Of a DNA stretch of 34,685 nucleotides, positions 128-34,685 are shown piece by piece. The position numbers were made by a program, and so were the translations under genes. The notes under the pieces were generated by a model, which saw only the letters and a list, made by a program, of their open reading frames with translations, made no database searches and had not been told where the DNA came from. The stretch is from Lachnospiraceae bacterium (GTDB taxonomy: Bacteria > Bacillota > Clostridia > Lachnospirales > Lachnospiraceae). The stretch's first letter is position 1; the number at the start of each line of letters is the position of its first letter. Location of the stretch: positions 83,433 through 118,117 of the forward strand of contig JAAVBZ010000026.1 in assembly GCA_014803415.1 (NCBI GenBank). The letters run 5' to 3'.

Positions 128-3100
128 ATGAGGGATAAAAGGATCGCCCTGCCTGGGGGAACCAGGCTGTATACTAACGATAACAGGACTATTCAGATCC
201 GCGGTGAGGTGGGAAGAGGGGCCAGTTGCATCGTATATGATGCAGCTTATGAGGATAATATTGGCGTATGGCACGATATTCGGATCAAAGAATGTTATCC
301 GGTTTATCTGCCTGTAGACAGGGAGACTGACGGCTCTCTTAAAATAGACGAAGACCATGAGGCAGACCTTTCCAGGGCAAAGCAGAGTTTTCTCCTGTCA
401 TATAAAAGAAATACTGAGATAAGAAATACCCTGGGATTGACCAATTCGACAGTTAATGCCACGAATATCCTTCATTACAACAACACGATCTACATAGTCA
501 TGGCTCTGGATGAGGGGACTGACTACAGGGTTTATGAGGACGGGTCGCTTAAAGAATTGTTCGTCCATGTTAAAAGTCTGGCAGAACTGATCAAGAAATA
601 TCATCAGAATGGTTTTTTACATCTGGATATCAAGCCGGAAAATATATTGATCCTTCCTGAAACACAGGAGCATATCCTATTGTTTGATTTTGACTCGATC
701 ATAGCAATAGATGAACTTGCCAAAACAGACAAAGTCAGGCTGTCATTTTCCGATGGATTTTCAGCGCCGGAACAGGTGCGGGGAGAGATCAACAAGATCG
801 GAAAGACGACAGATATCTATTCTATTGGAGCACTGGTATTTTTTAAGTTATTTGGAAGAAAACCGGTTTTGAAGGATTGCAAGATATCAAGTGTATTTCA
901 CTTTGAGAGCATGAAATATGCCAGTGAAAAATACCGGCCAAAGATGTATAGGAGCCTGTCGGTATTTTTCAGGAAAACCTTATCTGCGTCCACCGTATCA
1001 AGATGGAATGATGTGCAGACGGTCATAGATGCATTAGAGGAATTGATCGCATACGCAGATATTGACGGCGTATATTTACTGGATTCTTTTCATTATAATT
1101 CTGCCTGTTTTGTGGGGCGGTGTCAGGAAATTGAAAAAACAGACGCTGCTTTGCAGGAAGAAGGGCTGGTATTTCTTTCAGGGATCGGAGGCATAGGAAA
1201 AACCGAGGTTGCCAGGCGATATGCTTTTAATAACCGGGACAGATATGATACGATAACCTTTTCGGTGTTTGAATCTTCCATAAAGGAGCTTGTCTGTAAT
1301 GAGGTAAAGATCAACGGGGTCACAAGAGAGGAAAAAGAGAGTGATGAGGATTATTTTAAAAGAAAACTGGAGATCTTGAAAAATATCCTGACGCCAAAGG
1401 ATCTGCTGATCATAGATAATTTTGATGTAGAGATGGATGAGGATCTGGAACTGTTATTAGAATGTCCATGTAAATTCATTGTTACCACAAGAGAGGACTT
1501 CCGGGATTTTAATTATCCCCAGATCAATATTGACAAAATTGATGATATAGAAGAGATTCTGGAACTGTTTCGCAGCTACAATGATATTATCTATTCTCCA
1601 GATGAGGATATCGCCGTCAAAAGGATAATAGACCTGGTGGATCATCATACCATGACGGTAGAGCTGATCGCCAAGTATTTACGGGATGCGAATGAATCGC
1701 CTGAAAGCTTATATGGGCGGTTCCTTCAAAAAGAAGGGATCACCGGAGCTGATCAGATCAATGTAAAGCAAAGGAAAGACAGTCGTCTGCGTATTCAGAG
1801 CATCAATACCCATTTGAGGATATTGTTTGACGTCTCAGGCTTCGATCATTATGAAAGCGAGATTATAAGCAGTCTTTCTTTGTTTGCCGGGATACGGATG
1901 AAAAAGTCCAAATTTGAAGAGCTATGCGCTGTGGAAGAAGTGGAAATCAGATTGGAAGCGCTCATAAAGCGAGGATGGATAGAGTTTGATGACCAGACAG
2001 AAAAGATATCTCTGCATCAGGTGATACAGGATCTGATCTATAAAGAACTGCATCCAGATACATCCGGCTGTCCTCATATTGTCGCAGGGATAAACAGATA
2101 TCTATCTGCGGAAATGTCAAATGAAGCAGAGAGAAATATCAGGAGCCAGGTATTTGACGTGTTCATGAGGAGAATATCAGGCAATGATATTCCCTATGTC
2201 AGGCTTTGTCTGAAATATGGAAAAGAAGATAAATTGGATGAAGCTAATGAGATATGTCTTAAAAGCAGTGATGAAGAAGCATTTGACCTGCTCTATAGGA
2301 TATACAGGAAAAAAATACTATTCGTGGAAGAATGCAAGGATTTGTTCCAAACAGATCTGGATCTTAATGAGTATCAGAAAAGCAAATATATAGAAATTGC
2401 CGGACTGCTGGATAAGGCGTCGGAGTATTGTAACATGTATTCAGATGCACCGGAGTATATTGCCAGAGAATTTGTTGAAATGGGAATAGAGGTGGAGGAT
2501 GGATTAACTTATGGAATGCTGGACCGTCCGGGAGAGACCCAGGTTCCGGAATTAGATGAAATCTACGTAAGGATCATAAAGTTATTTGATATCGCTACAG
2601 AAAAATTACCTTATGCAAAGCTTGGAGTTAAGGAGAAGGAAGTTTTGTATGAGAAAATGCAGGTATTTTACGAGGGTACAGGGTTTTATGGGGCGATTTA
2701 CGGGGATGAAAATTTCACTGACATAGAAAAAGCGCTTTGGTATCAGGAGCAGATAGACGCCTTAAAAGATGATGACTCACCCTATGCATACCTTTTGCGC
2801 AATGTATCCAACATGGATCTGGCAAGTGAGTACATGCAAAAAGGAAATTATGAAAAGGCGATCGAATGCTGTGAGAAGGCCTGCCGGAATGGAGAGGAAA
2901 TTTTTTCAGTGATCATGGCCTGTAAATCGGAAGCATATTTAGAAATGGGGAATGTAGAAAAAGCCATTGAATGTCTGGAGCAGATTCAGGTAGCAGAAAA
3001 AAAAGACTCATATTATTCAGGTAATAAGTGTCTTGATCTGATAAAATTGCTGATCGAACAGAAGGAATATGAAAGAGCAAGAGACCATGCACTTGAATTG

Positions 3101-4360
3101 CTGCATTATAAGGAAAAGGAATTAGAAAAGGGAGAATACATGGAGGCAGTCAAAAAAGCCTTGGGAGCAGATTATTATCTGTTTTTACTGGAAGAAGATC
3201 CCGATAAAAAGGAGAACCTTTGGGCGGAATGTGTGAATTATTATGAAAGACTTGAAGAAGAGATGATAGATGAGGATCTGTACGACTTTTTGCTGCTGTA
3301 TGTACAAAAAACTGATATTCCCTATGCTGAGATCATAAAACTCCTGGACAGGATTTATGATTTTGAAAAGAAAGGAAGAGTTACAAGAGAAAAAATCTTA
3401 CTGCTGTCTATCCAAAAGTACAGCGGCCGGGAGAGTTTTGGTAAATGGCATGTCATTTTTTTACTCAGGCTTTCGGAAATGTCAAATGATCCCTTATGCC
3501 GGGAGAGAGAAAAAGCTTTGCAATACTTCTCTATGGCGCAGGAAATATCTGACAGATATAAACTGGAGGATGCGTATATTAAGAGTCTGCTCTGCAATGT
3601 GATGGCGGATATTTTGCTAAATGATGATGACAATGATTATGAACAGATAAGAGAGCTGAAAGAGCAATGTGATTATGAACTCATGGCCGAAAGAGAGATC
3701 CAATATGGAGGATATTCTGATGAAAGAAAGATTGATGCATGGAGAGATGCTGCGAATAAATATCAGGGGATCAATAGATATGAGAAAAGGAACATTTGCT
3801 TAAGACGGGCAGTCGGGATACTGTCTTTAGCATTGGACAGATACGAATACTATGAATTTGACAGAAAGTATTGGCCGGTCATAACAGAACTTATTGAAGC
3901 TTATATATATTGCGGCGAACCAGAAGCTGCTTATGCAGAGCTTAATAAACTATACGGTAATATCATAGATTGCTTCATGCGGGATAAGGAAGAGAAGGAT
4001 CTTTGGAACATCGTCTCCAAAACAGTGAGGATAGCAGGGTATCTGGAAGAAACAGGTAAAAGGACAATAGCCTTAAAGCTTTATACAGCGGCAATGTATC
4101 TGGCGGTAGAAGCAGAGCCGGATCTGGAACTGGTAAGTAAGATGGATATTCCTAATGCATGTCTTGACCGGATCTGTGATGAGATCTGTATGCATCTTAA
4201 GAAAGGAATAGAACCTCAGACCATAGACAGGCTGATAGAAATAAAAGATAAGATGCTCAAGGAAAGCGGTGAAGGCGATGATATCGGAAGGTATCTTCCG
4301 ATTATTCGGATAATAGTTAAGGAGTATCAATATCAGGAAATAGAATTTAAAAGGATCTGA
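128..4360 (+). CDS. Protein kinase - NB-ARC (STAND) ATPase - TPR-like fusion protein
   Basis: Predicted cytoplasmic 1,410-residue signalling ATPase. The N-terminal third is a Ser/Thr kinase domain: glycine loop GRGASCIV, lysine in IRIKE, catalytic loop HLDIKPEN (165-172), metal-binding DFD (187-189, in place of DFG) and an APEQ motif. A STAND/NB-ARC-like ATPase follows, with P-loop GIGGIGKT (352-359), Walker B LLIIDNFD near 425 and a winged-helix-like stretch. The remaining ~750 residues are helical with TPR-like units, for example near 885-955 (YEKAIECCEKA, VEKAIECLEQ). No signal peptide or membrane segment is visible. The frame is open to the left edge and an ATG also lies at 53; I chose 128 because GGAGG at 114-118 is well spaced and the kinase homology begins just after it. 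In STAND proteins the C-terminal repeats usually sense a trigger and the ATPase oligomerises. A defence or conflict role is inferred from architecture and neighbours. Confidence 0.85.
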   Translation: MRDKRIALPGGTRLYTNDNRTIQIRGEVGRGASCIVYDAAYEDNIGVWHDIRIKECYPVYLPVDRETDGSLKIDEDHEADLSRAKQSFLLSYKRNTEIRNTLGLTNSTVNATNILHYNNTIYIVMALDEGTDYRVYEDGSLKELFVHVKSLAELIKKYHQNGFLHLDIKPENILILPETQEHILLFDFDSIIAIDELAKTDKVRLSFSDGFSAPEQVRGEINKIGKTTDIYSIGALVFFKLFGRKPVLKDCKISSVFHFESMKYASEKYRPKMYRSLSVFFRKTLSASTVSRWNDVQTVIDALEELIAYADIDGVYLLDSFHYNSACFVGRCQEIEKTDAALQEEGLVFLSGIGGIGKTEVARRYAFNNRDRYDTITFSVFESSIKELVCNEVKINGVTREEKESDEDYFKRKLEILKNILTPKDLLIIDNFDVEMDEDLELLLECPCKFIVTTREDFRDFNYPQINIDKIDDIEEILELFRSYNDIIYSPDEDIAVKRIIDLVDHHTMTVELIAKYLRDANESPESLYGRFLQKEGITGADQINVKQRKDSRLRIQSINTHLRILFDVSGFDHYESEIISSLSLFAGIRMKKSKFEELCAVEEVEIRLEALIKRGWIEFDDQTEKISLHQVIQDLIYKELHPDTSGCPHIVAGINRYLSAEMSNEAERNIRSQVFDVFMRRISGNDIPYVRLCLKYGKEDKLDEANEICLKSSDEEAFDLLYRIYRKKILFVEECKDLFQTDLDLNEYQKSKYIEIAGLLDKASEYCNMYSDAPEYIAREFVEMGIEVEDGLTYGMLDRPGETQVPELDEIYVRIIKLFDIATEKLPYAKLGVKEKEVLYEKMQVFYEGTGFYGAIYGDENFTDIEKALWYQEQIDALKDDDSPYAYLLRNVSNMDLASEYMQKGNYEKAIECCEKACRNGEEIFSVIMACKSEAYLEMGNVEKAIECLEQIQVAEKKDSYYSGNKCLDLIKLLIEQKEYERARDHALELLHYKEKELEKGEYMEAVKKALGADYYLFLLEEDPDKKENLWAECVNYYERLEEEMIDEDLYDFLLLYVQKTDIPYAEIIKLLDRIYDFEKKGRVTREKILLLSIQKYSGRESFGKWHVIFLLRLSEMSNDPLCREREKALQYFSMAQEISDRYKLEDAYIKSLLCNVMADILLNDDDNDYEQIRELKEQCDYELMAEREIQYGGYSDERKIDAWRDAANKYQGINRYEKRNICLRRAVGILSLALDRYEYYEFDRKYWPVITELIEAYIYCGEPEAAYAELNKLYGNIIDCFMRDKEEKDLWNIVSKTVRIAGYLEETGKRTIALKLYTAAMYLAVEAEPDLELVSKMDIPNACLDRICDEICMHLKKGIEPQTIDRLIEIKDKMLKESGEGDDIGRYLPIIRIIVKEYQYQEIEFKRI

Positions 4361-4452
4361 TCCCGCAGTCGGAATCACTTTCACAGATCGGGCATTCCCA
4401 AAGGATATAATGGATTTATCAATCAATAATATGATAAAGGAGTGGGATTGCC

Positions 4453-6165
4453 ATGAAACTGAAACCAATAGAATTTGGAGCAAAAACTATCGTTCCGGAA
4501 AATCCGAACGATACAGGAAAAATCGATGCTATTAAGGAAAGGATCCTGTTATCCGATACTGAGAGTCTGGATCTGAAAGGGATCACAGCCTTAAGTAAAT
4601 TCCAAGTGATACTTTTTCCGGAGATCAAGTGGAAACTGTTACATATGGAGAGTGAACTTCCCCGTTTTTTAACGGTTATCGGGATCAAAAAGTGGGAAAA
4701 TACCTGGATGTTTCTATGTGGTTCCCAGGAAACTTTTCTCAGTATTGCGAATGAATTTGCGCTTTCATTTAGATTGAAAGAGACGGACGGTCAGGAGATG
4801 GTGTCTTATATAAAAATCAAAAAGGGCCATGCGGAAATTTCCCTGGAACGCGCATATAGTGAGGCCGAACGCGCATTTGCAGGATTTTTGCTGAAAGCAT
4901 CCGACCCTGTTGTAGAAAGCTGCCTGATCAGCGATATCTGGAACTTGGACAAAGTGTATGAGATACTCCTTAGTTTCCTGCCTCACAACACAGATAAAAA
5001 AGCAATTTTTGAGATGAAGCAGCTCAAAGCGGAATATGGCAAGGATTTTGCCAGAAAAAAAGAGCTGCTGGAAAGCTACAGGCAATCTGTCTCAGAGGAT
5101 AATTTCCTGTCTCAGGCGGAGAATATTCAAAAAGAGATGGAGCGCTGGATAAGGCTGACAAGGGAGAAGAAAATTGACAGGGAATTTGGAGAAGCGTATG
5201 TAGAAATCCTTCAGGAGAAAATGGAGATCATAAAGGATGAAGTCCGCAATTATTTAAATAGGACAGATTTTGTTCCCGGGTCAGAGCAGGATTGTAAGAG
5301 CAGACTGCTTGAGCAGTTGGAAAGCATTCCAAGATCCTGCCGGGATAAAATGGTGAGTCTGTACAGGGATTATTGTGACTGGGAAAACAGACTGGAAGAG
5401 ATAGACAGAAAATTTCCCCAAGATACTGTAGATCTGAAGATTCCGCAATACCTTAAGTTCTATCATTTGGGAAGGATCATGATCGGTAAATATCTTGATC
5501 AGGGGGAGAGCGATTACGATGAGGAGAAGCAGATCCTGCAGGAAGAGCTGGATCAGGCAATGATCTACTTTTATGAAACGGATACTGCGCAGGAAGCCTG
5601 GAAAATGGAAAAATATATGAAAAGCAGAAGGAAAGGACTGCGTGGTGAAAAGGAAGTGGACTATGCGCTTAAGTGGCTGGATAAAAACTATGTCACTGTT
5701 CCGAAAATAACAGACAGAAGGCACAGGATGAAAACCATCGCATTGATCAATCCTGATTTTAAAGATGAATCCCAGGAATACGATCATATTGTGATAGGAA
5801 GACAGGGCGTATTTGCAATAGAAACCAAGGACTATTCAGGGAGCCTGAACATTGATACCTATGGTAATTGGATAAGAAGGAAAGAAGACGGCATACGTGT
5901 AGGGGAAAGAAATCCGTTACAGCAGATAGACAGGCATGTAAAACTATTGCGGTCCTTTCTGAAAGATGATATTCCCGTAATTGCAGTGATCTGTATAGCA
6001 AATCGGGAGACGATCATAGAGGGGCAGGAACATTGTCCCATTCCACTTATCAAAAGCGATATGCTGGCCAGATTTATAGAGGACTATCCTTTAGGCGGCA
6101 GGGAACTTTCAGAGGATGAAATAAAGGAATGCTTATCAGCAATTGAAGATCACAGATATAGATAA
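4453..6165 (+). CDS. NERD (nuclease-related) domain protein
   Basis: A 570-residue protein. The first ~390 residues match no family I recognise; they are charged, largely helical and probably coiled-coil around 195-390. The C-terminal part is a NERD domain: GLRGEKEV near 398, then EYDHIVIGRQGVFAIETKDYSG spread over about 442-463 with the E-x-K of ETK at 457-459, and a later NPLQQIDRHVKLL helix. NERD belongs to the restriction-endonuclease-like fold, and the D...ExK residues needed for metal-dependent DNA cleavage are present. AAAGGAG lies about 10 bases before the ATG. The gene sits 92 bases after the kinase-ATPase gene with no terminator seen between them, so co-transcription is likely. NERD domains are known to occur fused to protein kinases, which supports a shared function with the upstream gene. 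Nuclease activity is inferred. Confidence 0.82.
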   Translation: MKLKPIEFGAKTIVPENPNDTGKIDAIKERILLSDTESLDLKGITALSKFQVILFPEIKWKLLHMESELPRFLTVIGIKKWENTWMFLCGSQETFLSIANEFALSFRLKETDGQEMVSYIKIKKGHAEISLERAYSEAERAFAGFLLKASDPVVESCLISDIWNLDKVYEILLSFLPHNTDKKAIFEMKQLKAEYGKDFARKKELLESYRQSVSEDNFLSQAENIQKEMERWIRLTREKKIDREFGEAYVEILQEKMEIIKDEVRNYLNRTDFVPGSEQDCKSRLLEQLESIPRSCRDKMVSLYRDYCDWENRLEEIDRKFPQDTVDLKIPQYLKFYHLGRIMIGKYLDQGESDYDEEKQILQEELDQAMIYFYETDTAQEAWKMEKYMKSRRKGLRGEKEVDYALKWLDKNYVTVPKITDRRHRMKTIALINPDFKDESQEYDHIVIGRQGVFAIETKDYSGSLNIDTYGNWIRRKEDGIRVGERNPLQQIDRHVKLLRSFLKDDIPVIAVICIANRETIIEGQEHCPIPLIKSDMLARFIEDYPLGGRELSEDEIKECLSAIEDHRYR

Positions 6166-7795
6166 AACACAGTTTATCAAAGAATGGTGGGAGCAGGGAG
6201 ACAGTGTGACGCTGATCACCCGTCCCAGAAGATTTGGGAAAACGCTGACCATGAATATGGTGGAGAAGTTTTTCTCGGTGGATTATGCAGGGAGAAAGGA
6301 ATTATTTGAAGGTCTGTCCATCTGGCAGGAGGACAAATACAGAAAGCTGCAGGGAACGTATCCCGTAATTTCCATTAGCTTTGCGGATGTAAAAGAAACT
6401 TCTTTTTTACAGACACGTAAATCTATATGCCGTATCATCAAAGCACTTTACAATAAGTATGACTTTTTATTAAGGACGGATCTGCTGAATGATGATGAGA
6501 AGCAGGAATTCAGAAAGATTGCGGTGGATATGGAGGATAGCGAAGCATCATTTTCATTGAAAGCGTTGTCAGATTATCTTTGCCGTTATTATGGTAAAAA
6601 AGTGATCATCTTATTGGATGAATATGATACGCCCATGCAGGAGGCTTATGTCAATGGATATTGGGGAGAGCTTTCTTCCTTTATCAGAGGTTTATTTAAT
6701 GCGGCCTTTAAGACCAATCCTTATTTGGAGCGGGCAATCATGACAGGGATAACCAGAATCAGCAGAGAGTCGATTTTTTCCGATTTAAATAACCTGGAAA
6801 TAGTAACCACAACCTCTGAAAAATATGCGAGTGTTTTTGGATTTATGCAGGAGGAAGTTTTTGCAGCACTTAATGAATTTGGTTTATCTGAAAAGCGTGA
6901 AGAAGTAAAACGCTGGTATGATGGTTTTAGTTTCGGAAAAAGAGAGGATATTTATAATCCATGGTCCATACTGAATTATCTGGATAAAAGGAAAGTGGGG
7001 GCATATTGGGCAAATTCCAGTTCCAACAATCTGGTTGGAAAACTGCTGCGGGAAGGAAATAAAAGCATTAAGCAGGATTTCGAAACGCTGCTGCGAGGAG
7101 GATCCATCTATGCGGAAGTAGACGAGCAGATCATTTATGAACAATTGGACTATGACGAACAGGCGGTTTGGAGTCTTTTACTTTCCAGTGGTTATTTGAA
7201 GACGAAAAATCTTGAAAGTTGTTCTTCTGATTATCAGGAATGGAAAATAATATATGAATTGGAGATTACGAATTTTGAAGTTAAAGTCATGTTCCGCAGT
7301 ATGGTGAAAAAATGGTTTGGCGGCGTTTCCTCGGCGTATAATGATTTTGTTAAAGCATTGCTGAATGATGATCTGAAAGCAATGAACATCTATATGAATG
7401 ATATAGCTATGGCGACATTCAGTTATTTTGATACAGGTAAAAATCCTGCGCGGACTGAGCCGGAGCGGTTTTATCACGGATTTGTTTTAGGATTGCTGGT
7501 AGAACTTTCAGACAAGTATCTGCTTACTTCTAACAGAGAGAGCGGTTTTGGGCGGTATGATGTGATGCTTGAGGCCAAAAACAAAAACGGAAGTACCATG
7601 GATGACTGTATCATTATGGAATTTAAGGTACAGGATACGGAGGAAGAAGATTTGTCTGATACCGTGAAGAGAGCGCTGGAACAGATAGAAGAGCAGGAGT
7701 ATGCATCTATACTTTCTGCCAGGGGGATTCCCGAAGAAAATATCAGAAAATATGGATTTGCCTTTTGCGGAAAAAAAGTTCTGATCGGCAGTTAA
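6143..7795 (+). CDS. AAA-ATPase-like / PD-(D/E)XK nuclease family protein, N-terminus apparently shortened
   Basis: A 550-residue member of the predicted AAA-ATPase plus PD-(D/E)XK nuclease family (AAA-ATPase_like with a C-terminal nuclease domain), often multi-copy in gut Firmicutes and Bacteroidetes and of unknown function. P-loop-like ITRPRRFGKTLTM has G32-K33-T34, Walker B is IILLDEYD with D159-E160, and the nuclease core shows GRYDVML (D473) and MEFKV (E493-F494-K495). Family members normally begin with about 15-20 residues leading to a YYVDKTxFI motif; here the protein opens at ITDIDKTQFI. The only usable start is TTG at 6143, 23 bases inside the NERD gene in another frame; an in-frame stop at 6122-6124 blocks any longer form, and the ribosome site is weak. 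It may be translationally coupled, or a 5'-truncated gene joined to the NERD gene by deletion. Confidence 0.8.
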   Translation: MKITDIDKTQFIKEWWEQGDSVTLITRPRRFGKTLTMNMVEKFFSVDYAGRKELFEGLSIWQEDKYRKLQGTYPVISISFADVKETSFLQTRKSICRIIKALYNKYDFLLRTDLLNDDEKQEFRKIAVDMEDSEASFSLKALSDYLCRYYGKKVIILLDEYDTPMQEAYVNGYWGELSSFIRGLFNAAFKTNPYLERAIMTGITRISRESIFSDLNNLEIVTTTSEKYASVFGFMQEEVFAALNEFGLSEKREEVKRWYDGFSFGKREDIYNPWSILNYLDKRKVGAYWANSSSNNLVGKLLREGNKSIKQDFETLLRGGSIYAEVDEQIIYEQLDYDEQAVWSLLLSSGYLKTKNLESCSSDYQEWKIIYELEITNFEVKVMFRSMVKKWFGGVSSAYNDFVKALLNDDLKAMNIYMNDIAMATFSYFDTGKNPARTEPERFYHGFVLGLLVELSDKYLLTSNRESGFGRYDVMLEAKNKNGSTMDDCIIMEFKVQDTEEEDLSDTVKRALEQIEEQEYASILSARGIPEENIRKYGFAFCGKKVLIGS

Positions 7796-28858: not shown

Positions 28859-31800
28859 ATGAAGAAAGTGTTTAAATCTAAAAGATTGTTAGCATTCGTT
28901 CTGGCGCTTGTTCTTATAGCGACCACATGCGTAAGTTCTTCCGATGCATTCCTGCGGGCTGAATCGGGAACTGAAGCAGACGGATCTACAGAAGAAACAC
29001 AGCTGGCGACAGTTGACGCTGGTGATTCATCCGATGATGCAGGTGATTCATCGGATTATGAAGATGATTCATCGGATTATATAGATGATTCATCGGATTA
29101 TGAAGATGATTCATCGGGTGATGCAGATGATTCATCGGGTGATACGGATGATTCATCGACTGATGCAGGTGAACCATCGGATGATGCAGATGAATCATCA
29201 GATGATTCAGATGATGAGACAGACGAATCATTGACTGATGCAGACGAAACAGTGGAAATAGAAGTAGAAGACCCTGACGCTGCAACAGACAAGGAAGAAG
29301 AAAAAGCAGAGTTGACTGAGTCGGTCGAGAGATTTGTAGAAGAAATGAAGAATCTGCTCGGGGCTGATGAGATCACGTTGGACAATGCAGCTGAGGTATA
29401 TGAACTGCTCATCGGCGGTGAGATGTCTGACGGCTATGACCAGGCACTGGCATATCTGGAATCTCAGGAAGACGAAGAAGTTCAGGGAGCCTGCGATAAA
29501 TATGAAGCAGTTCTTGCAGCTGTGAAGAAGATGATGGATATCAGAAGCTTCGTAGATGAAATGCAGAAGCTGCCTGAAGCTGACAAGATCACGAAGGACA
29601 ATGCAGCCGATGTATTAGAAGTGCTCGGCAGCGAAGAGATGTCTGACGGCTATGTTCTGGCAGTTGAATATCTGGAATCTCAGGAAGATGAAGAAGTTCA
29701 GGAAGCCTGCGATAAGTATGAAGCTCTTTTCTTTGCTACACAGAAGCTGCTGGAGTTAGAAAACAATAAATATGACGATCTAACAGGCGGACTTAATGAT
29801 GGCTGGTCATTTGCTGATATGGCAGCCTGGTTCAATGAAAAGGCACAGCCAGGCACGACTATTACCCTTGAGGCAAGCCAGGGTGCTACGGACTATACAT
29901 TTCAGGGTACACTGACTATCCCTACCGGTGTAACGCTTATTGTTAAAAATATTGGTATTTGGCGTGGGGATGGAGCATTTGGCGGCCCACTGTTTAATGT
30001 GACAGCCGGAGGTACGCTGGTTCTGGAATCCATGAGCTTACATGGCACGAAGCAAGATGAGTGTGGTATGCGTTATGACCAGCAGGGTCTTTGGGCATCC
30101 GGCCCCTTGGTTAGTGTTGGACCGGGCGGAACTTTTAATATGGGAAGTGGTGCCTACCTGCATGGCAACGGCAATAAGAGTAATGGCGGCGGCGTATACG
30201 TAGATAACGGCGGAACTTTCAATTTTAATTCAGGATCTATTGTAAACTGTGATGCGCTATATGGCGGCGGTGTGTTCTTGGAACCTGATGCCACTTATAA
30301 TAATAACGGCGGCAGTATCACAGGTTGTCGTGGGACTAAGGACGGCGATGATGTTTACAGGGGACCAATTCCTGTAGAGATTGGCGATGATATTCTGACT
30401 AACAAGAAGATAGTCATTGCTATCATAAAAGATCCAACTTCTATTCCAAATGAGCCTTCCGTATCGGATCGGCAATATGTGTGGATAACTAACGAGTATG
30501 TCATAGCTCCGGAAGGGCTATACCCCGAATTCTCCACTAATGCAGCTGACTACATAGATCCTGCGATTTTCGATGATCCCAACTTTAAGATTAACGGAGC
30601 AGCACGAGGCGTGAGCGATTCGGCGTCACGTTATGTGAGGGGAATTGACTGGGATAGAGTCCTTGAAGCTGTTGCAAGCGCAAACAGAGGTGTGGCAACT
30701 GAAGATGGAAATGTGATCACTATGGATAATAAAAACAGTTATAAAATTTATCCATATGTAGCTAAGTATCAAGATCCAACTGATGATGACACCTGGCATG
30801 TTGACTGCGTTATCATTCCTGCAAATCGTCCTAAACTGATCTATCAGTTAAATCTGCAGGGAAATACTGACAGCCTTGTTGGCTTTGAGGCTCCCGCGGG
30901 TAATACATACGAACCTGGAACGAATGTCACTGTTGGAAGTGTGAAGTATAATAGTGCGAATATTGCAGTCGGTCAAGCAATTAGCGTGAAGAAGGATGGC
31001 GTGGATGCGACTTTGTATTTCGTTGGCTGGAGTGAATCGATTAATGGTACAGCACCGATTTATAAGCCGGGTGAAATATTCCAGATTAATAACGACACCA
31101 CCCTGTATGGCGTGTGGACGACCGAGTATGAAATGCATGACATTAGTTACACGGTTGAATATTATAAGGATGGCGTGAAAGCCGATACTGATACATTTAC
31201 GGAGAGTGTGCTGTCCAACAGAAATACGCTGACAGTGCAACCAATCGATAAGAATAAGTATACAGATTATGAGTTTGACCATTATGAGGTTGATGGTGTA
31301 GAAGTGTCCGAATTGCCTGAAACGGTGGAGAATGGCGCTGTCATTAAAGTATACTATAAATCCATGACAGCGATATACACAGTGAGACATCTATATCAGA
31401 ATATAACAGATGATGGATATACAGAGACTGTGGCTTATAGACAGGAATTGTCTGGAACAATAGGAGCTAAGACGAATGCACAGGCCAAGACGGAAACCGG
31501 CTTTACTGCAAAAGCGGTAACTCAGGAGACGATTAAAGCAGACGGAACAACAATAGTAAATATCTACTATGACCGTAACGTGCATACAGTAACCTATGAG
31601 ATCACAGGAAGCCATTTTAATAATCCTTCCTATTATAAAGAGACCAAGAAATACGGAGCTCCACTGACACTGATTGGCAACGACATGGAAAAAGCCGGTT
31701 ATGAGTGGAGTGGTTGGAGCGGTCTGCCCACAATAATGCCTGACAATGATGTGACAGTTACAGGGCACTATTCGACCAAGGATGATACAGCATATAGGGT

Positions 31801-34685
31801 AGAGTATTTCTGGCAGAATACAGATAATGATGAGTATGCCCTGCATGAAACAAAGGTCCTGGCAGGTGTGACGGGAGCAGATGTAACAGCAACCATCATA
31901 GCTTATGAAGGATTTAAGCATGTAACAGTAACAGGAAGGTCTGTAGAAAGCGGAAATATTGCAGCAGACGGAAGCCTTGTGCTGAAAGTATATTATGACA
32001 GAGAAACATACAAGATCACCTATGCAATAACAGGTGAGCTGTTCGCTAAAGATCCGTATAAGACGGTTGGAGACGTAAGGTACGGAGCAAACCTGAGCCT
32101 GATCACAGACAACATGCAGAAGACCGGATATGTATGGAGCGGCTGGAAGGGACTGCCTGGCACTATGCCGAACCATGATGTAAGAGTTGAAGGTTCCTAC
32201 AGTGCAGCAACAAATACAAAGTATACAGTAAAGCATTGGTATCAGAATCTGGAAGATGACGACTACACAGAGAAAGAGACAGAAACTCAGACCCTGACAG
32301 GAACGACCGGAGCGAAGACAGCTGCAGAAGCTAAGACTGTAACCGGATTTACTGCAAAAACAGTAGAACAGCAGACAATCAAAGCAGACGGAACAACAGT
32401 AGTAAACATCTACTATGACCGCAACGTACATACAGTAACCTATCAGATTACAGGAACCTATTTCAGAGATGATGCCTTTAGCGTGCAGAATGATGTGAAA
32501 TACGGAGCAAACCTGACCCTGATCACTAATAACATGATAAAAGCCGGTTACACGTGGAGTGGTTGGAGCGGCCTGCCCACAACAATGCCTGACAATGATG
32601 TGATAGTAACAGGTTACTATTCAACGAATAAAGATACGCAATACAAAGTAGAGTATTACTGGCAGAACGCAAACAATGATGAGTATGCTATACATGAAAC
32701 AAAGATCATGAAAGGTGAGACAGGTGCGTCAGTAACAGCATCTATTATAGCTTATGAAGGATTTAAGCATGTAACAGTAGCAGGAAGGTCTGTAGAAAGC
32801 GGAAATATTGCAGCAGACGGAAGCCTTGTGCTGAAAGTATATTATGACAGAGAAACATACAAGATCACCTATGCAATAACAGGTGAGGTAGATCCTGTAG
32901 ATCCGTATACGACAGTTGAAAATGTGCGGTTCGGAACAAATCTGAGCCTGATCACAGATGACATGGAGAAACAGGGATATGTATGGAGCGGCTGGAAGGG
33001 ACTGCCTGGCACAATGCCGAGCGGAGATGTAAGAGTCACAGGTTCCTACAGTGCAGCAACAAATACAGCATATACTGTAAAGCATTGGTATCAGAATCTG
33101 GAAGATGACGACTACACAGAGGAAGAGACAGAAACTCAGACCTTGACAGGAACAACCGGAGCGCAGACAGCTGCAGAAGCTAAGAAAGTTACCGGATTTA
33201 CCGCAAAAACGTTTGTACAGGAAACAATCAAAGCAGACGGAAGTACAGTAGTAAACATCTACTATGACCGCAACTTGCATACAGTGACCTACGAGATCAC
33301 AGGAAGCCATTTCACAAACCCTGAATTTAGAGTGCAGAATAATGTGAAATACGGAGCAAGCTTAACCCTGATCGGCGACAACATGGCAAAAGAAGGATAT
33401 ACCTGGAGCGAGTGGAGCGGCCTGCCCGAAACAATGCCTGATAATGATGTGACAGTAGAAGGTTACTATTCAACAAAAGATGATACGAAATATACTGTAG
33501 AGTATTACTGGCAGAACGTAGAAAATGATGAGTACACTAAGCATGATACAAAGATTTTCGCAGGTGTGACAGAGGATCTGGTAACAGCGCCTATCGAAAC
33601 CTATGAAGGATTGAATCATGTGACAGTAGAAGGAAAGTCTGTAGAAAGCGGAAATATTGCAGCAGACGGAAGCCTTGTACTGAAAGTATACTATAACAGG
33701 AATACCTATAAGATCACCTATGCAGTAACAGGAGAGCTGTTCGCAGCAGATCCGTATGATACAGTTGAAAATGTGCGGTTCGGAACAAAACTGAGCCTGA
33801 TCACAGACAACATGGAGAAACAGGGATATGTATGGAGCGGCTGGAGTGGACTGCCTGGCACAATGCCGAGCGGAGATGTAAGAGTCACAGGTTCCTACAG
33901 TGCAGCAACAAATACAGCATATGAAGTAAGGCATCTGTATCAGAACATAGCAGCTGACGAATACGCAGAGAACGAGTCAGAGAGAGAGAACCTGACAGGA
34001 ACAACCGGAGCGCAGACAGCTGCAAAGGCGAAGACCGGAGTAACTGGCTTTACCGCAAAAGAAGTAGAGCAGCAGACAATCGCAGCAGACGGAACGACAG
34101 TAGTAAATATCTACTATGACCGCATCAGATATGATGTGACAGGTACGATTGATAATGGCGGTAGTGTAACAAATGCCAACCAGGAAGTAGCTTACGAAGG
34201 CAATTCCCAGTCAATGACATTTACAGCAGCAGACGGCTATATCATAAAGACCATCAAGGTTAATGGTATAGACCAGAAGGTAGCTTATGACCAGACAACA
34301 TATACCTATGACGCACAGACCAATGTTACAGAAGACATCACAGTAGTAGTGACAACTGCGGCAAAGAATCCTGAGCTGAGCCTGAGCAAGGAACGTACGA
34401 ATGAACCGGAAAACGGAACAGGATACAAGCTTGGAGAAGAGATCACTTATACGATCACAGCAGCAAACACAGGAAATGTGACACTGAGCGGTATTACGGT
34501 AAAAGATGAACTGGTTAGTTTCGAAAGAGAGATCGAAGGCAGTCTGGCACCGGGCGAATCCCAGAAATTTGACGTTTCCTATACGGTAACGGCAGAGGAT
34601 ATAGCAGCCGGCCATGTACTGAATGTGGCAACTGCAGAAGGTCCCGATGAACCGAAGATCATACCTGATGAGGAAGATACCCCTA
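28859..34685 (+). CDS. Giant secreted/surface repeat protein with InlB- and MucBP-like repeats, 3' end beyond the window
   Basis: At least 1,942 residues, still open at the window edge. The order is: signal peptide with hydrophobic core LLAFVLALVLIATT (about 1-36); acidic Asp/Ser tract of 7-residue repeats (55-117); a duplicated 72-residue helical module (156-299); a probable right-handed beta-helix rich in GGT and GGGVY turns (about 341-491); a first InlB-type unit ending YFVGWSESI and TLYGVWT (to about 757); seven alternating MucBP/InlB-like repeats, the last incomplete (840 to about 1757); then a DUF11-like beta domain ending in NPELSLSKERTNEP and YTITAANTGNVTLSGI. Such proteins are usually adhesins, often attached by a C-terminal LPXTG or similar signal, which would lie outside this window. 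AAGGAGGA precedes the ATG. The frame was read through without a stop. lepB diverges from it. Confidence 0.9.
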   Translation, partial: MKKVFKSKRLLAFVLALVLIATTCVSSSDAFLRAESGTEADGSTEETQLATVDAGDSSDDAGDSSDYEDDSSDYIDDSSDYEDDSSGDADDSSGDTDDSSTDAGEPSDDADESSDDSDDETDESLTDADETVEIEVEDPDAATDKEEEKAELTESVERFVEEMKNLLGADEITLDNAAEVYELLIGGEMSDGYDQALAYLESQEDEEVQGACDKYEAVLAAVKKMMDIRSFVDEMQKLPEADKITKDNAADVLEVLGSEEMSDGYVLAVEYLESQEDEEVQEACDKYEALFFATQKLLELENNKYDDLTGGLNDGWSFADMAAWFNEKAQPGTTITLEASQGATDYTFQGTLTIPTGVTLIVKNIGIWRGDGAFGGPLFNVTAGGTLVLESMSLHGTKQDECGMRYDQQGLWASGPLVSVGPGGTFNMGSGAYLHGNGNKSNGGGVYVDNGGTFNFNSGSIVNCDALYGGGVFLEPDATYNNNGGSITGCRGTKDGDDVYRGPIPVEIGDDILTNKKIVIAIIKDPTSIPNEPSVSDRQYVWITNEYVIAPEGLYPEFSTNAADYIDPAIFDDPNFKINGAARGVSDSASRYVRGIDWDRVLEAVASANRGVATEDGNVITMDNKNSYKIYPYVAKYQDPTDDDTWHVDCVIIPANRPKLIYQLNLQGNTDSLVGFEAPAGNTYEPGTNVTVGSVKYNSANIAVGQAISVKKDGVDATLYFVGWSESINGTAPIYKPGEIFQINNDTTLYGVWTTEYEMHDISYTVEYYKDGVKADTDTFTESVLSNRNTLTVQPIDKNKYTDYEFDHYEVDGVEVSELPETVENGAVIKVYYKSMTAIYTVRHLYQNITDDGYTETVAYRQELSGTIGAKTNAQAKTETGFTAKAVTQETIKADGTTIVNIYYDRNVHTVTYEITGSHFNNPSYYKETKKYGAPLTLIGNDMEKAGYEWSGWSGLPTIMPDNDVTVTGHYSTKDDTAYRVEYFWQNTDNDEYALHETKVLAGVTGADVTATIIAYEGFKHVTVTGRSVESGNIAADGSLVLKVYYDRETYKITYAITGELFAKDPYKTVGDVRYGANLSLITDNMQKTGYVWSGWKGLPGTMPNHDVRVEGSYSAATNTKYTVKHWYQNLEDDDYTEKETETQTLTGTTGAKTAAEAKTVTGFTAKTVEQQTIKADGTTVVNIYYDRNVHTVTYQITGTYFRDDAFSVQNDVKYGANLTLITNNMIKAGYTWSGWSGLPTTMPDNDVIVTGYYSTNKDTQYKVEYYWQNANNDEYAIHETKIMKGETGASVTASIIAYEGFKHVTVAGRSVESGNIAADGSLVLKVYYDRETYKITYAITGEVDPVDPYTTVENVRFGTNLSLITDDMEKQGYVWSGWKGLPGTMPSGDVRVTGSYSAATNTAYTVKHWYQNLEDDDYTEEETETQTLTGTTGAQTAAEAKKVTGFTAKTFVQETIKADGSTVVNIYYDRNLHTVTYEITGSHFTNPEFRVQNNVKYGASLTLIGDNMAKEGYTWSEWSGLPETMPDNDVTVEGYYSTKDDTKYTVEYYWQNVENDEYTKHDTKIFAGVTEDLVTAPIETYEGLNHVTVEGKSVESGNIAADGSLVLKVYYNRNTYKITYAVTGELFAADPYDTVENVRFGTKLSLITDNMEKQGYVWSGWSGLPGTMPSGDVRVTGSYSAATNTAYEVRHLYQNIAADEYAENESERENLTGTTGAQTAAKAKTGVTGFTAKEVEQQTIAADGTTVVNIYYDRIRYDVTGTIDNGGSVTNANQEVAYEGNSQSMTFTAADGYIIKTIKVNGIDQKVAYDQTTYTYDAQTNVTEDITVVVTTAAKNPELSLSKERTNEPENGTGYKLGEEITYTITAANTGNVTLSGITVKDELVSFEREIEGSLAPGESQKFDVSYTVTAEDIAAGHVLNVATAEGPDEPKIIPDEEDTP
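29021..29209 (+). repeat. Nine tandem 21-base repeats coding an acidic Asp/Ser tract
   Basis: Nine consecutive 7-codon units follow the pattern [D/G]-[D/E]-S-S-x-x-x, for example GDSSDYE, DDSSDYI, DDSSDYE, DDSSGDA and DDSSGDT. The core GATGATTCATCGG is strongly conserved at DNA level. Unit length is a multiple of three, so gain or loss of copies would keep the frame. The tract probably acts as an extended, acidic, possibly ion-binding or glycosylated spacer. Confidence 0.85.
29324..29755 (+). repeat. Tandem duplication of a 216-base helical module
   Basis: Two 72-residue copies (29324-29539 and 29540-29755) share FVxEM, ITxDNAAxV, EMSDGY, YLESQEDEEVQ and ACDKYEA in the same order. They are probably helical and I do not recognise a named family. 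Confidence 0.8.
31376..34125 (+). repeat. Seven alternating A/B surface-protein repeats of 417-429 bases
   Basis: Units start at 31376, 31793, 32222, 32642, 33071, 33491 and 33920. Odd units (type A) are 417-420 bases and even units (type B) are exactly 429 bases. Type A opens Y-T-V-x-H-x-Y-Q-N and carries GFTAK and IKADGTT; type B opens V-E-Y-x-W-Q-N and carries YEGFKHVTV and SVESGNIAADGSL. Every complete unit ends in an InlB-like W-S-x-W-x-GLP-x-x-MP motif followed by a Y-S linker. Unit 7 is type A but lacks the InlB half and passes into a different domain. Confidence 0.88.

Follow-up and report, generated by a model that had tools for sequence, protein, structure and literature searches.

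The left end of a 34,685-nucleotide stretch of DNA from a gut-type Lachnospiraceae bacterium (hereafter the window; G000:C26:83433-118117, from a 4.26-Mb assembly with a completeness of 97% and a contamination of 9%) was found to encode a protein kinase fused to a STAND-type NTPase and a TPR-like tail (gene 1), which is accompanied by a 437-amino acid (aa) protein, designated here X437, encoded just outside the window. Judged by gene neighbourhood and co-inheritance, X437 is an undescribed dedicated partner of the kinase-STAND protein, and the two probably, though not provably, represent a two-gene kinase signalling system used against invading DNA. A sequence-only reading of the window had presented gene 1, a NERD nuclease-like gene (gene 2) and an AAA/PD-(D/E)XK gene (gene 3) as a candidate undescribed defence system. 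The candidacy stands in part, with a STAND-type receptor-like kinase, a patchy distribution, no named system matching the whole and some relatives located beside defence genes or an integrase; the proposed gene set does not, and the reading of the locus is corrected here in that the effector-looking neighbour, the NERD gene, is not the conserved partner. STAND receptors themselves are known; what is new here is the kinase output of such a receptor together with its dedicated but undescribed partner. To our knowledge, it is an open question which proteins many bacterial Hanks-type kinases phosphorylate and what role kinase-bearing STAND receptors have, and a fixed partner that tracks the kinase in Clostridia as well as on a plasmid and in prophage-like contigs represents a specific candidate substrate or regulator.

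The kinase-STAND-TPR protein

ORF (open reading frame) calling and Pfam domains confirmed the three co-directional genes with short or overlapping junctions that had been read from the letters of the window: ORFs at 128-4360, 4453-6165 and 6143-7795, all on the plus strand, are real, with a 92-bp gap between genes 1 and 2 and a 23-bp overlap between genes 2 and 3. The features of gene 1 and its partner are as follows (window positions unless a contig is named).

G000:C26:82025-83338 (L005:16026-17339), minus strand: X437, 437 aa, outside the window, 94 bp left of base 1
1-127, no strand: window portion of the 221-bp intergenic region between the divergent kinase-STAND and X437 genes (tblastn and hidden Markov model (HMM) for X437)
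128-4360, plus strand: kinase-STAND-TPR protein, 1410 aa (ORF call, Pfam, 57% ortholog in genome G022)
158-1057, plus strand: Ser/Thr protein kinase domain (Pfam Pkinase, 1.4e-15; catalytic residues intact)
1082-2227, plus strand: NB-ARC-like STAND NTPase region (AAA_22 and NB-ARC below threshold; alignments)
2228-4357, plus strand: TPR-like C-terminal tail (Pfam TPR_19; least conserved part)

The start at position 128, also chosen in the sequence-only reading, is preferable to the alternative at position 53 (a 1435-aa ORF), because the G022 ortholog opens with an identical MRDKR. The combination of a kinase, an NB-ARC-type ATPase and a TPR-like tail in a single protein was borne out by residue checks and by Pfam (Pkinase, E=1.4e-15; TPR_19, 4.9e-7; AAA_22, 1.2e-5; NB-ARC, 1.3e-4), the AAA_22 and NB-ARC matches falling just short of Pfam's cut-off; in the sister locus L223, NACHT lies above that cut-off. 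The kinase carries the lysine of IRIKEC together with HLDIKPEN, DFD, APE and TD, while the STAND region displays a P-loop (LSGIGGIGKTE), a Walker B motif (LLIIDNF), TTRED and HTMTVEL. Residues were checked in aligned relatives from 23 loci, L141, L221 and L228 having been dropped from 26 by length filters. The Hanks-type catalytic D, K, N, D and E are kept in 23/23 and the VAIK lysine in 22/23, with a variable HxD histidine position (H in 17, Y in 5 and L in 1), and the P-loop lysine and Walker B aspartate are present in 23/23 and 22/23, respectively. Retention of the kinase residues and P-loop lysine in 22-23 of the 23 loci indicates that the domain assignment is not due to chance: with both Walker A and Walker B motifs, the STAND region is predicted to be a P-loop NTPase, and the kinase is by its residues of the Hanks type.

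Compared with the G022 protein, the proteins of L102, L103 and L104 exhibited 48-51% identity in the kinase, 47-53% in the STAND part and 24-32% in the tail, and a tail that is the most divergent part would be expected for a sensor. Among 98 relatives, the G022 protein represents the sole full-length ortholog (57%) besides the window's own, and gene 1 is patchily distributed within the genus (2/37 genomes including its own, or 1/36 others). Four more orthologs were retrieved from 397 family genomes (G345, G256, G185 and G314, among the matching places examined), and further ones were drawn from a genome-contig collection. Organisms carrying the pair include Ruminococcus albus 7, Butyribacter intestini TF01-11 and Intestinibacter bartlettii N19.

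Pairing of X437 with the kinase

X437 was located by tblastn next to each of the six closest gene 1 homologues, convergently oriented in G345 and divergently in the rest. For further loci, an HMM derived from seven X437 sequences was used, followed by a later 22-sequence model. Kinase or STAND queries yielded a set of 30 loci, 28 of which contain X437; G715 and G573 were excluded from this set because an X437 search had brought both in, while L233-L235, first found via X437, were found again via a kinase-STAND query. Two kinase-STAND loci reached later through X437 (L270 and L278) stand outside all counts; both contain X437, and no NERD gene is among their listed neighbours. X437 and the kinase-STAND gene are mostly adjacent, with intervening ORFs in L233 (one), L136 (two), L139 (four) and L138 (five).

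Conversely, 13 loci of related kinase-less STAND proteins (12 with at least 4.8 kb on both sides) all lacked X437, as did eight further such loci of IMG/VR contigs, indicating that X437 goes with the kinase rather than with the STAND part. Searches starting from X437 gave a similar picture: it occurs in 3/98 relatives, every copy beside a kinase, and in 6/391 genomes of the class, five beside a kinase gene or fragment and one (G816) without. In the family, 45/382 genomes contain 54 X437 loci, many of them remote matches (E ~1e-7 to 1e-35). All 12 loci known earlier have a kinase, as do 35 of the 42 new ones within 2 kb and two others (L292 and L300) at 2.2-2.3 kb.

Furthermore, pairwise distances across the 23 loci were correlated between X437 and the kinase (r=0.84) and between X437 and the STAND part (0.80) to the same extent as between the kinase and NB regions of one protein (0.83), and none of 5000 permutations gave correlations as high. 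By this measure, X437 was shown to be co-inherited with the kinase as tightly as two parts of one protein.

X437 and a kinase were also observed together with other STAND forms, namely a kinase-NACHT fusion (L223), a separate NACHT-like STAND ORF (L257) and, a few genes away, a separate nSTAND5-TPR protein (L061). We tentatively propose, with somewhat less than even confidence, that a large family of Clostridia protein-kinase modules, of which our searches found no description, has X437 as its dedicated substrate; where the kinase is fused to a STAND/TPR sensor, the pair would act as an NLR-kinase immune receptor with an exchangeable sensor (NB-ARC-like, NACHT or separate STAND) and a constant kinase-X437 output.

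Some additional genes were noted around these loci. X437 and the kinase-STAND gene have two P-loop GTPase-like genes between them at L139:2916-4668 (IIGP/AIG1-like, Pfam) and L138:5773-7623 (by eye), and homologous HTH (helix-turn-helix)-like ORFs of ~85 aa occur immediately 3' of kinase-STAND genes (L102:8759-9013 and L143:14662-14910). Kinase-less NB-ARC/TPR STAND genes are recurrent in IMG/VR contigs (L254-L256, L258 and L260-L263), several near phage-like ORFs (by eye).

Features of X437

Members of the X437 family are ~440 aa in length, with a C-terminal region of ~250 aa; the copy in the source assembly contains some ambiguous bases in an open frame. Searches of Pfam, PADLOC, NCBIfam and PDB sequences with 22 X437 sequences gave nothing convincing. 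The best scattered matches, each from one sequence of the 22, were PADLOC PbeD (2.8e-5), Pfam CDI_toxin_EC869_like (5.4e-4) and an NCBIfam family (0.009), with none among PDB sequences at E 10. Residues ~42-115 of the G022 X437 align with XRE-type HTH domains represented by only six sequences (hhalign Prob 85, P=6.3e-6); the best of 20 column shuffles reached 7.7e-3, and reversal and other profiles were far worse.

The G022 X437 query retrieved nothing from plasmid or phage records. With the L235 X437 query one plasmid was matched, and the L235 kinase-STAND query likewise gave one plasmid and no phage record. No description of the kinase-STAND/X437 pair was found in the literature, within limited coverage of subscription papers.

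Comparison with known systems

A defence-profile search (PADLOC), as the sequence-only reading had recommended, matched the kinase domain of gene 1 only (PD-T4-6, MkoA and mad6 among those listed), with no match to the whole protein. Avs/AVAST and bacterial NLR-like proteins possess a central STAND ATPase and a long repeat tail, and gene 1 shares this arrangement, its tail being the presumed sensor. It differs in its N-terminal protein kinase and in having a separate conserved partner, X437, and its STAND part and tail matched no PADLOC family, Avs/AVAST included, at E 0.1. The best PADLOC match of the kinase, PD-T4-6 (1.8e-19), covers residues 134-333 of the 1435-aa ORF and is therefore not full length; the PD-T4-6 models listed comprise 292-564 positions, whereas the gene 1 kinase is fused to a STAND part and tail and paired with X437. 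The FxSxx-COOH system TPR protein (NF040586) matches the STAND part (9.8e-10, residues 327-645), but its 37.5 bits fall below the cut-off of 300 and the kinase part is left uncovered.

Mokosh combines an RNA helicase domain with a kinase, and no helicase family was among the Pfam matches listed for gene 1. Mokosh MkoA, MADS MAD6 and BREX PglW gave weak partial matches to both window proteins. PglW of BREX type 2 carries kinase and NERD modules in one protein (PMC12839542) and acts with other partners; in the window, kinase and NERD are separate ORFs whose link is not conserved, and the listed matches of the eight scanned proteins include no other BREX family. In the CapK-CapS pair, a kinase is reported to phosphorylate a paired DNA-binding repressor, beside immune operons (PMC13373217). 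DNA binding and phosphorylation by the paired kinase are both proposed here for X437, although CapK is described as resembling anti-sigma kinases and CapS as STAS-like, and the comparison with X437 is by description alone.

Proposed mechanism

We give an even chance to X437 and the kinase-STAND-TPR protein being the functional unit, in which the kinase is activated by the STAND/TPR part and in turn acts with X437. The variable TPR-like tail would sense a trigger, upon which the STAND part would exchange nucleotide, oligomerise and gather the kinase domains. The active kinase may then phosphorylate X437, and perhaps other proteins, thereby altering the DNA or partner binding of X437. With less certainty, the STAND-fused form could be triggered by invading phages or plasmids, with an output that might slow or kill the cell, or derepress other genes.

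Alternatively, X437 could be an inhibitor or antitoxin that binds a growth-arresting kinase and keeps it silent, with the triggered STAND part releasing or overriding it. HipBA represents such an HTH-kinase toxin-antitoxin pair, and the near-constant pairing, the HTH-like N-terminus of X437 and the fact that the kinase domain finds its best PADLOC matches in single-kinase defence families (led by PD-T4-6) agree with this view. Against it stand the large size of X437 and the arrangement of the two genes, which in the closest group are mostly divergent and up to 4 kb apart (L138) rather than in a tight operon. We regard an antitoxin role as distinctly unlikely.

The neighbouring NERD and AAA-ATPase/PDDEXK genes

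The two genes downstream of gene 1 contain the following features.

4453-6165, plus strand: NERD protein, 570 aa (Pfam NERD 4.5e-19, residues 394-515); not the conserved partner
5632-5997, plus strand: NERD domain of gene 2 (Pfam)
6143-7795, plus strand: AAA-ATPase_like/PDDEXK_9 protein (Pfam AAA-ATPase_like 4.7e-42, PDDEXK_9 7.9e-18)

In the unit drawn from the sequence-only reading, the kinase-STAND protein would be the sensor, the NERD protein the nuclease effector and the AAA/PDDEXK protein a helper, and the reading was to fall if the first two genes were not conserved neighbours. Their neighbourhood was examined in 32 kinase-STAND loci (27 in which both models hit a single ORF at 1e-5, plus L233-L235, L252 and L267; some with short flanks), and a NERD gene adjoins the kinase-STAND gene in two of these, the window and L225, so that the kinase-STAND/NERD pairing fails this test. 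The G022 ortholog (57%) is followed by an 81 aa ORF and radical-SAM-like ORFs (by eye), with no NERD gene. Conversely, no kinase, STAND or X437 gene was present within three genes at seven loci of relatives of the window NERD protein (P0002), two of which are cut by a contig end; genomes G190, G321 and G373 fall outside this survey. The first ~390 residues of gene 2 gave no Pfam match.

Certain observations are nevertheless consistent with the proposed unit. The genes are co-directional, and a ribosome-binding-site-like AAAGGAG was recognised by eye in the 92-bp gap, where no terminator-like site was found on the plus strand. In L225, which also contains X437, a NERD gene (L225:5609-6634; Pfam, 3e-14) lies 183 bp downstream of the kinase-STAND gene, although its product matches P0002 weakly (4e-5). 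Based on ~25 NERD matches with E below 1e-8 in 60 genomes (weaker matches being mostly 120-150 aa ORFs), ~0.01 adjacencies would be expected by chance, compared with one observed (L225) in the 31 other loci, a rough estimate that presumes ~3000 genes per genome, placed at random, an assumption that does not hold in accessory regions. As L225 exceeds this estimate, an optional NERD link may exist. The NERD protein is taken to be a bystander, or at most an occasional add-on to the kinase-STAND/X437 unit, and as a core part it was rejected on its presence in 2/32 loci, the NERD-less G022 ortholog and the kinase-free surroundings of its relatives.

Gene 3 belongs to a family with ten matching places in its own genome, including itself and one fragment (family loci L129-L135). 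It starts with TTG, and its N-terminus is ~17 residues shorter than those of paralogs L129 and L130, so that the overlap with gene 2 may represent an accidental truncation junction. As a short member of a multi-copy family, gene 3 was rejected as a core part and is probably unrelated to the kinase-STAND unit, in which it would likewise be a bystander. The gene set uniting both downstream genes with the kinase-STAND protein is consequently not supported, and we regard it as very improbable.

Genomic context and the defence question

Several relatives of the pair are located beside genes related to defence or mobility. In L234, two N6/N4 methylases and two MvaI/BcnI nucleases adjoin the pair, and in L233 a phage integrase and an HTH_3 repressor are found on the X437 side. 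On plasmid pRUMAL01 of R. albus 7, the pair (WP_013483441.1 and WP_013483440.1) is flanked on one side by PIN/phd genes and on the other by two hypothetical genes followed by brxL-ThiF-Mov34. The restriction-modification, brxL and integrase neighbours, together with the patchiness of the pair, suggest a defence role at somewhat better than an even chance.

The window locus itself lies between gltD, which ends at 81088, and mgsA, which starts at 92120 of G000:C26. This interval is variable within the genus, ranging from 1.7 kb (G012) to ~30 kb (G013) across L236-L247. Its cargo was read by eye from ORF starts, apart from L245 and parts of L244 and L246, and the interval was rejected as a defence island on account of mainly metabolic-looking cargo. 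At G008:C1:1183466-1215757, gltD is apparently split into two pieces ~31 kb apart.

The defence reading, and the pairing on which it builds, must be weighed against a number of contrary observations. The gltD-mgsA cargo in relatives is mainly transporter-, regulator- and flagellin-like, and many other kinase-STAND/X437 pairs have ordinary neighbours. X437 is missing in L147 (1 kb available to the left) and L231, and the L156 match is weak, scoring 1e-7 against the 22-sequence model and 0.065 against the first one. No kinase lies within 2.4 kb of X437 at five of the 42 new family loci (L268, L276, L291, L293 and L297), of which L291 borders a contig end. The distance correlations cannot separate co-evolution from shared ancestry or plain common descent. 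Pfam gives no HTH in X437, the HTH call being based on the six XRE sequences, and 13 X437 upstream regions share no operator motif beyond a -10-like element. The STAND part of L228, outside the 23-locus set, has no P-loop lysine. Finally, kinases without a STAND part are also found paired with X437, in some cases near PP2C or FHA-like genes, so that X437 and its kinase may serve general signalling.

In a further explanation, X437 and the kinase would regulate the envelope, differentiation or a stress response, with the STAND/TPR part responding to an internal cue. Such a role fits the PP2C genes close to the kinase-STAND loci L230 and L231, the FHA-like ORFs (by eye) near remote X437 relatives in the wider, STAND-less pairings, and the metabolic-looking neighbours at the window site and several other loci. 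We consider it rather unlikely, as presence is patchy (2/37 genus genomes) and some copies adjoin restriction-modification genes or are carried by a plasmid or a prophage-like contig.

At the opposite end of the window (28859-34684), a 1942 aa ORF that runs off the window was found to match DUF7507, with weak SPOCS and ArsD matches.

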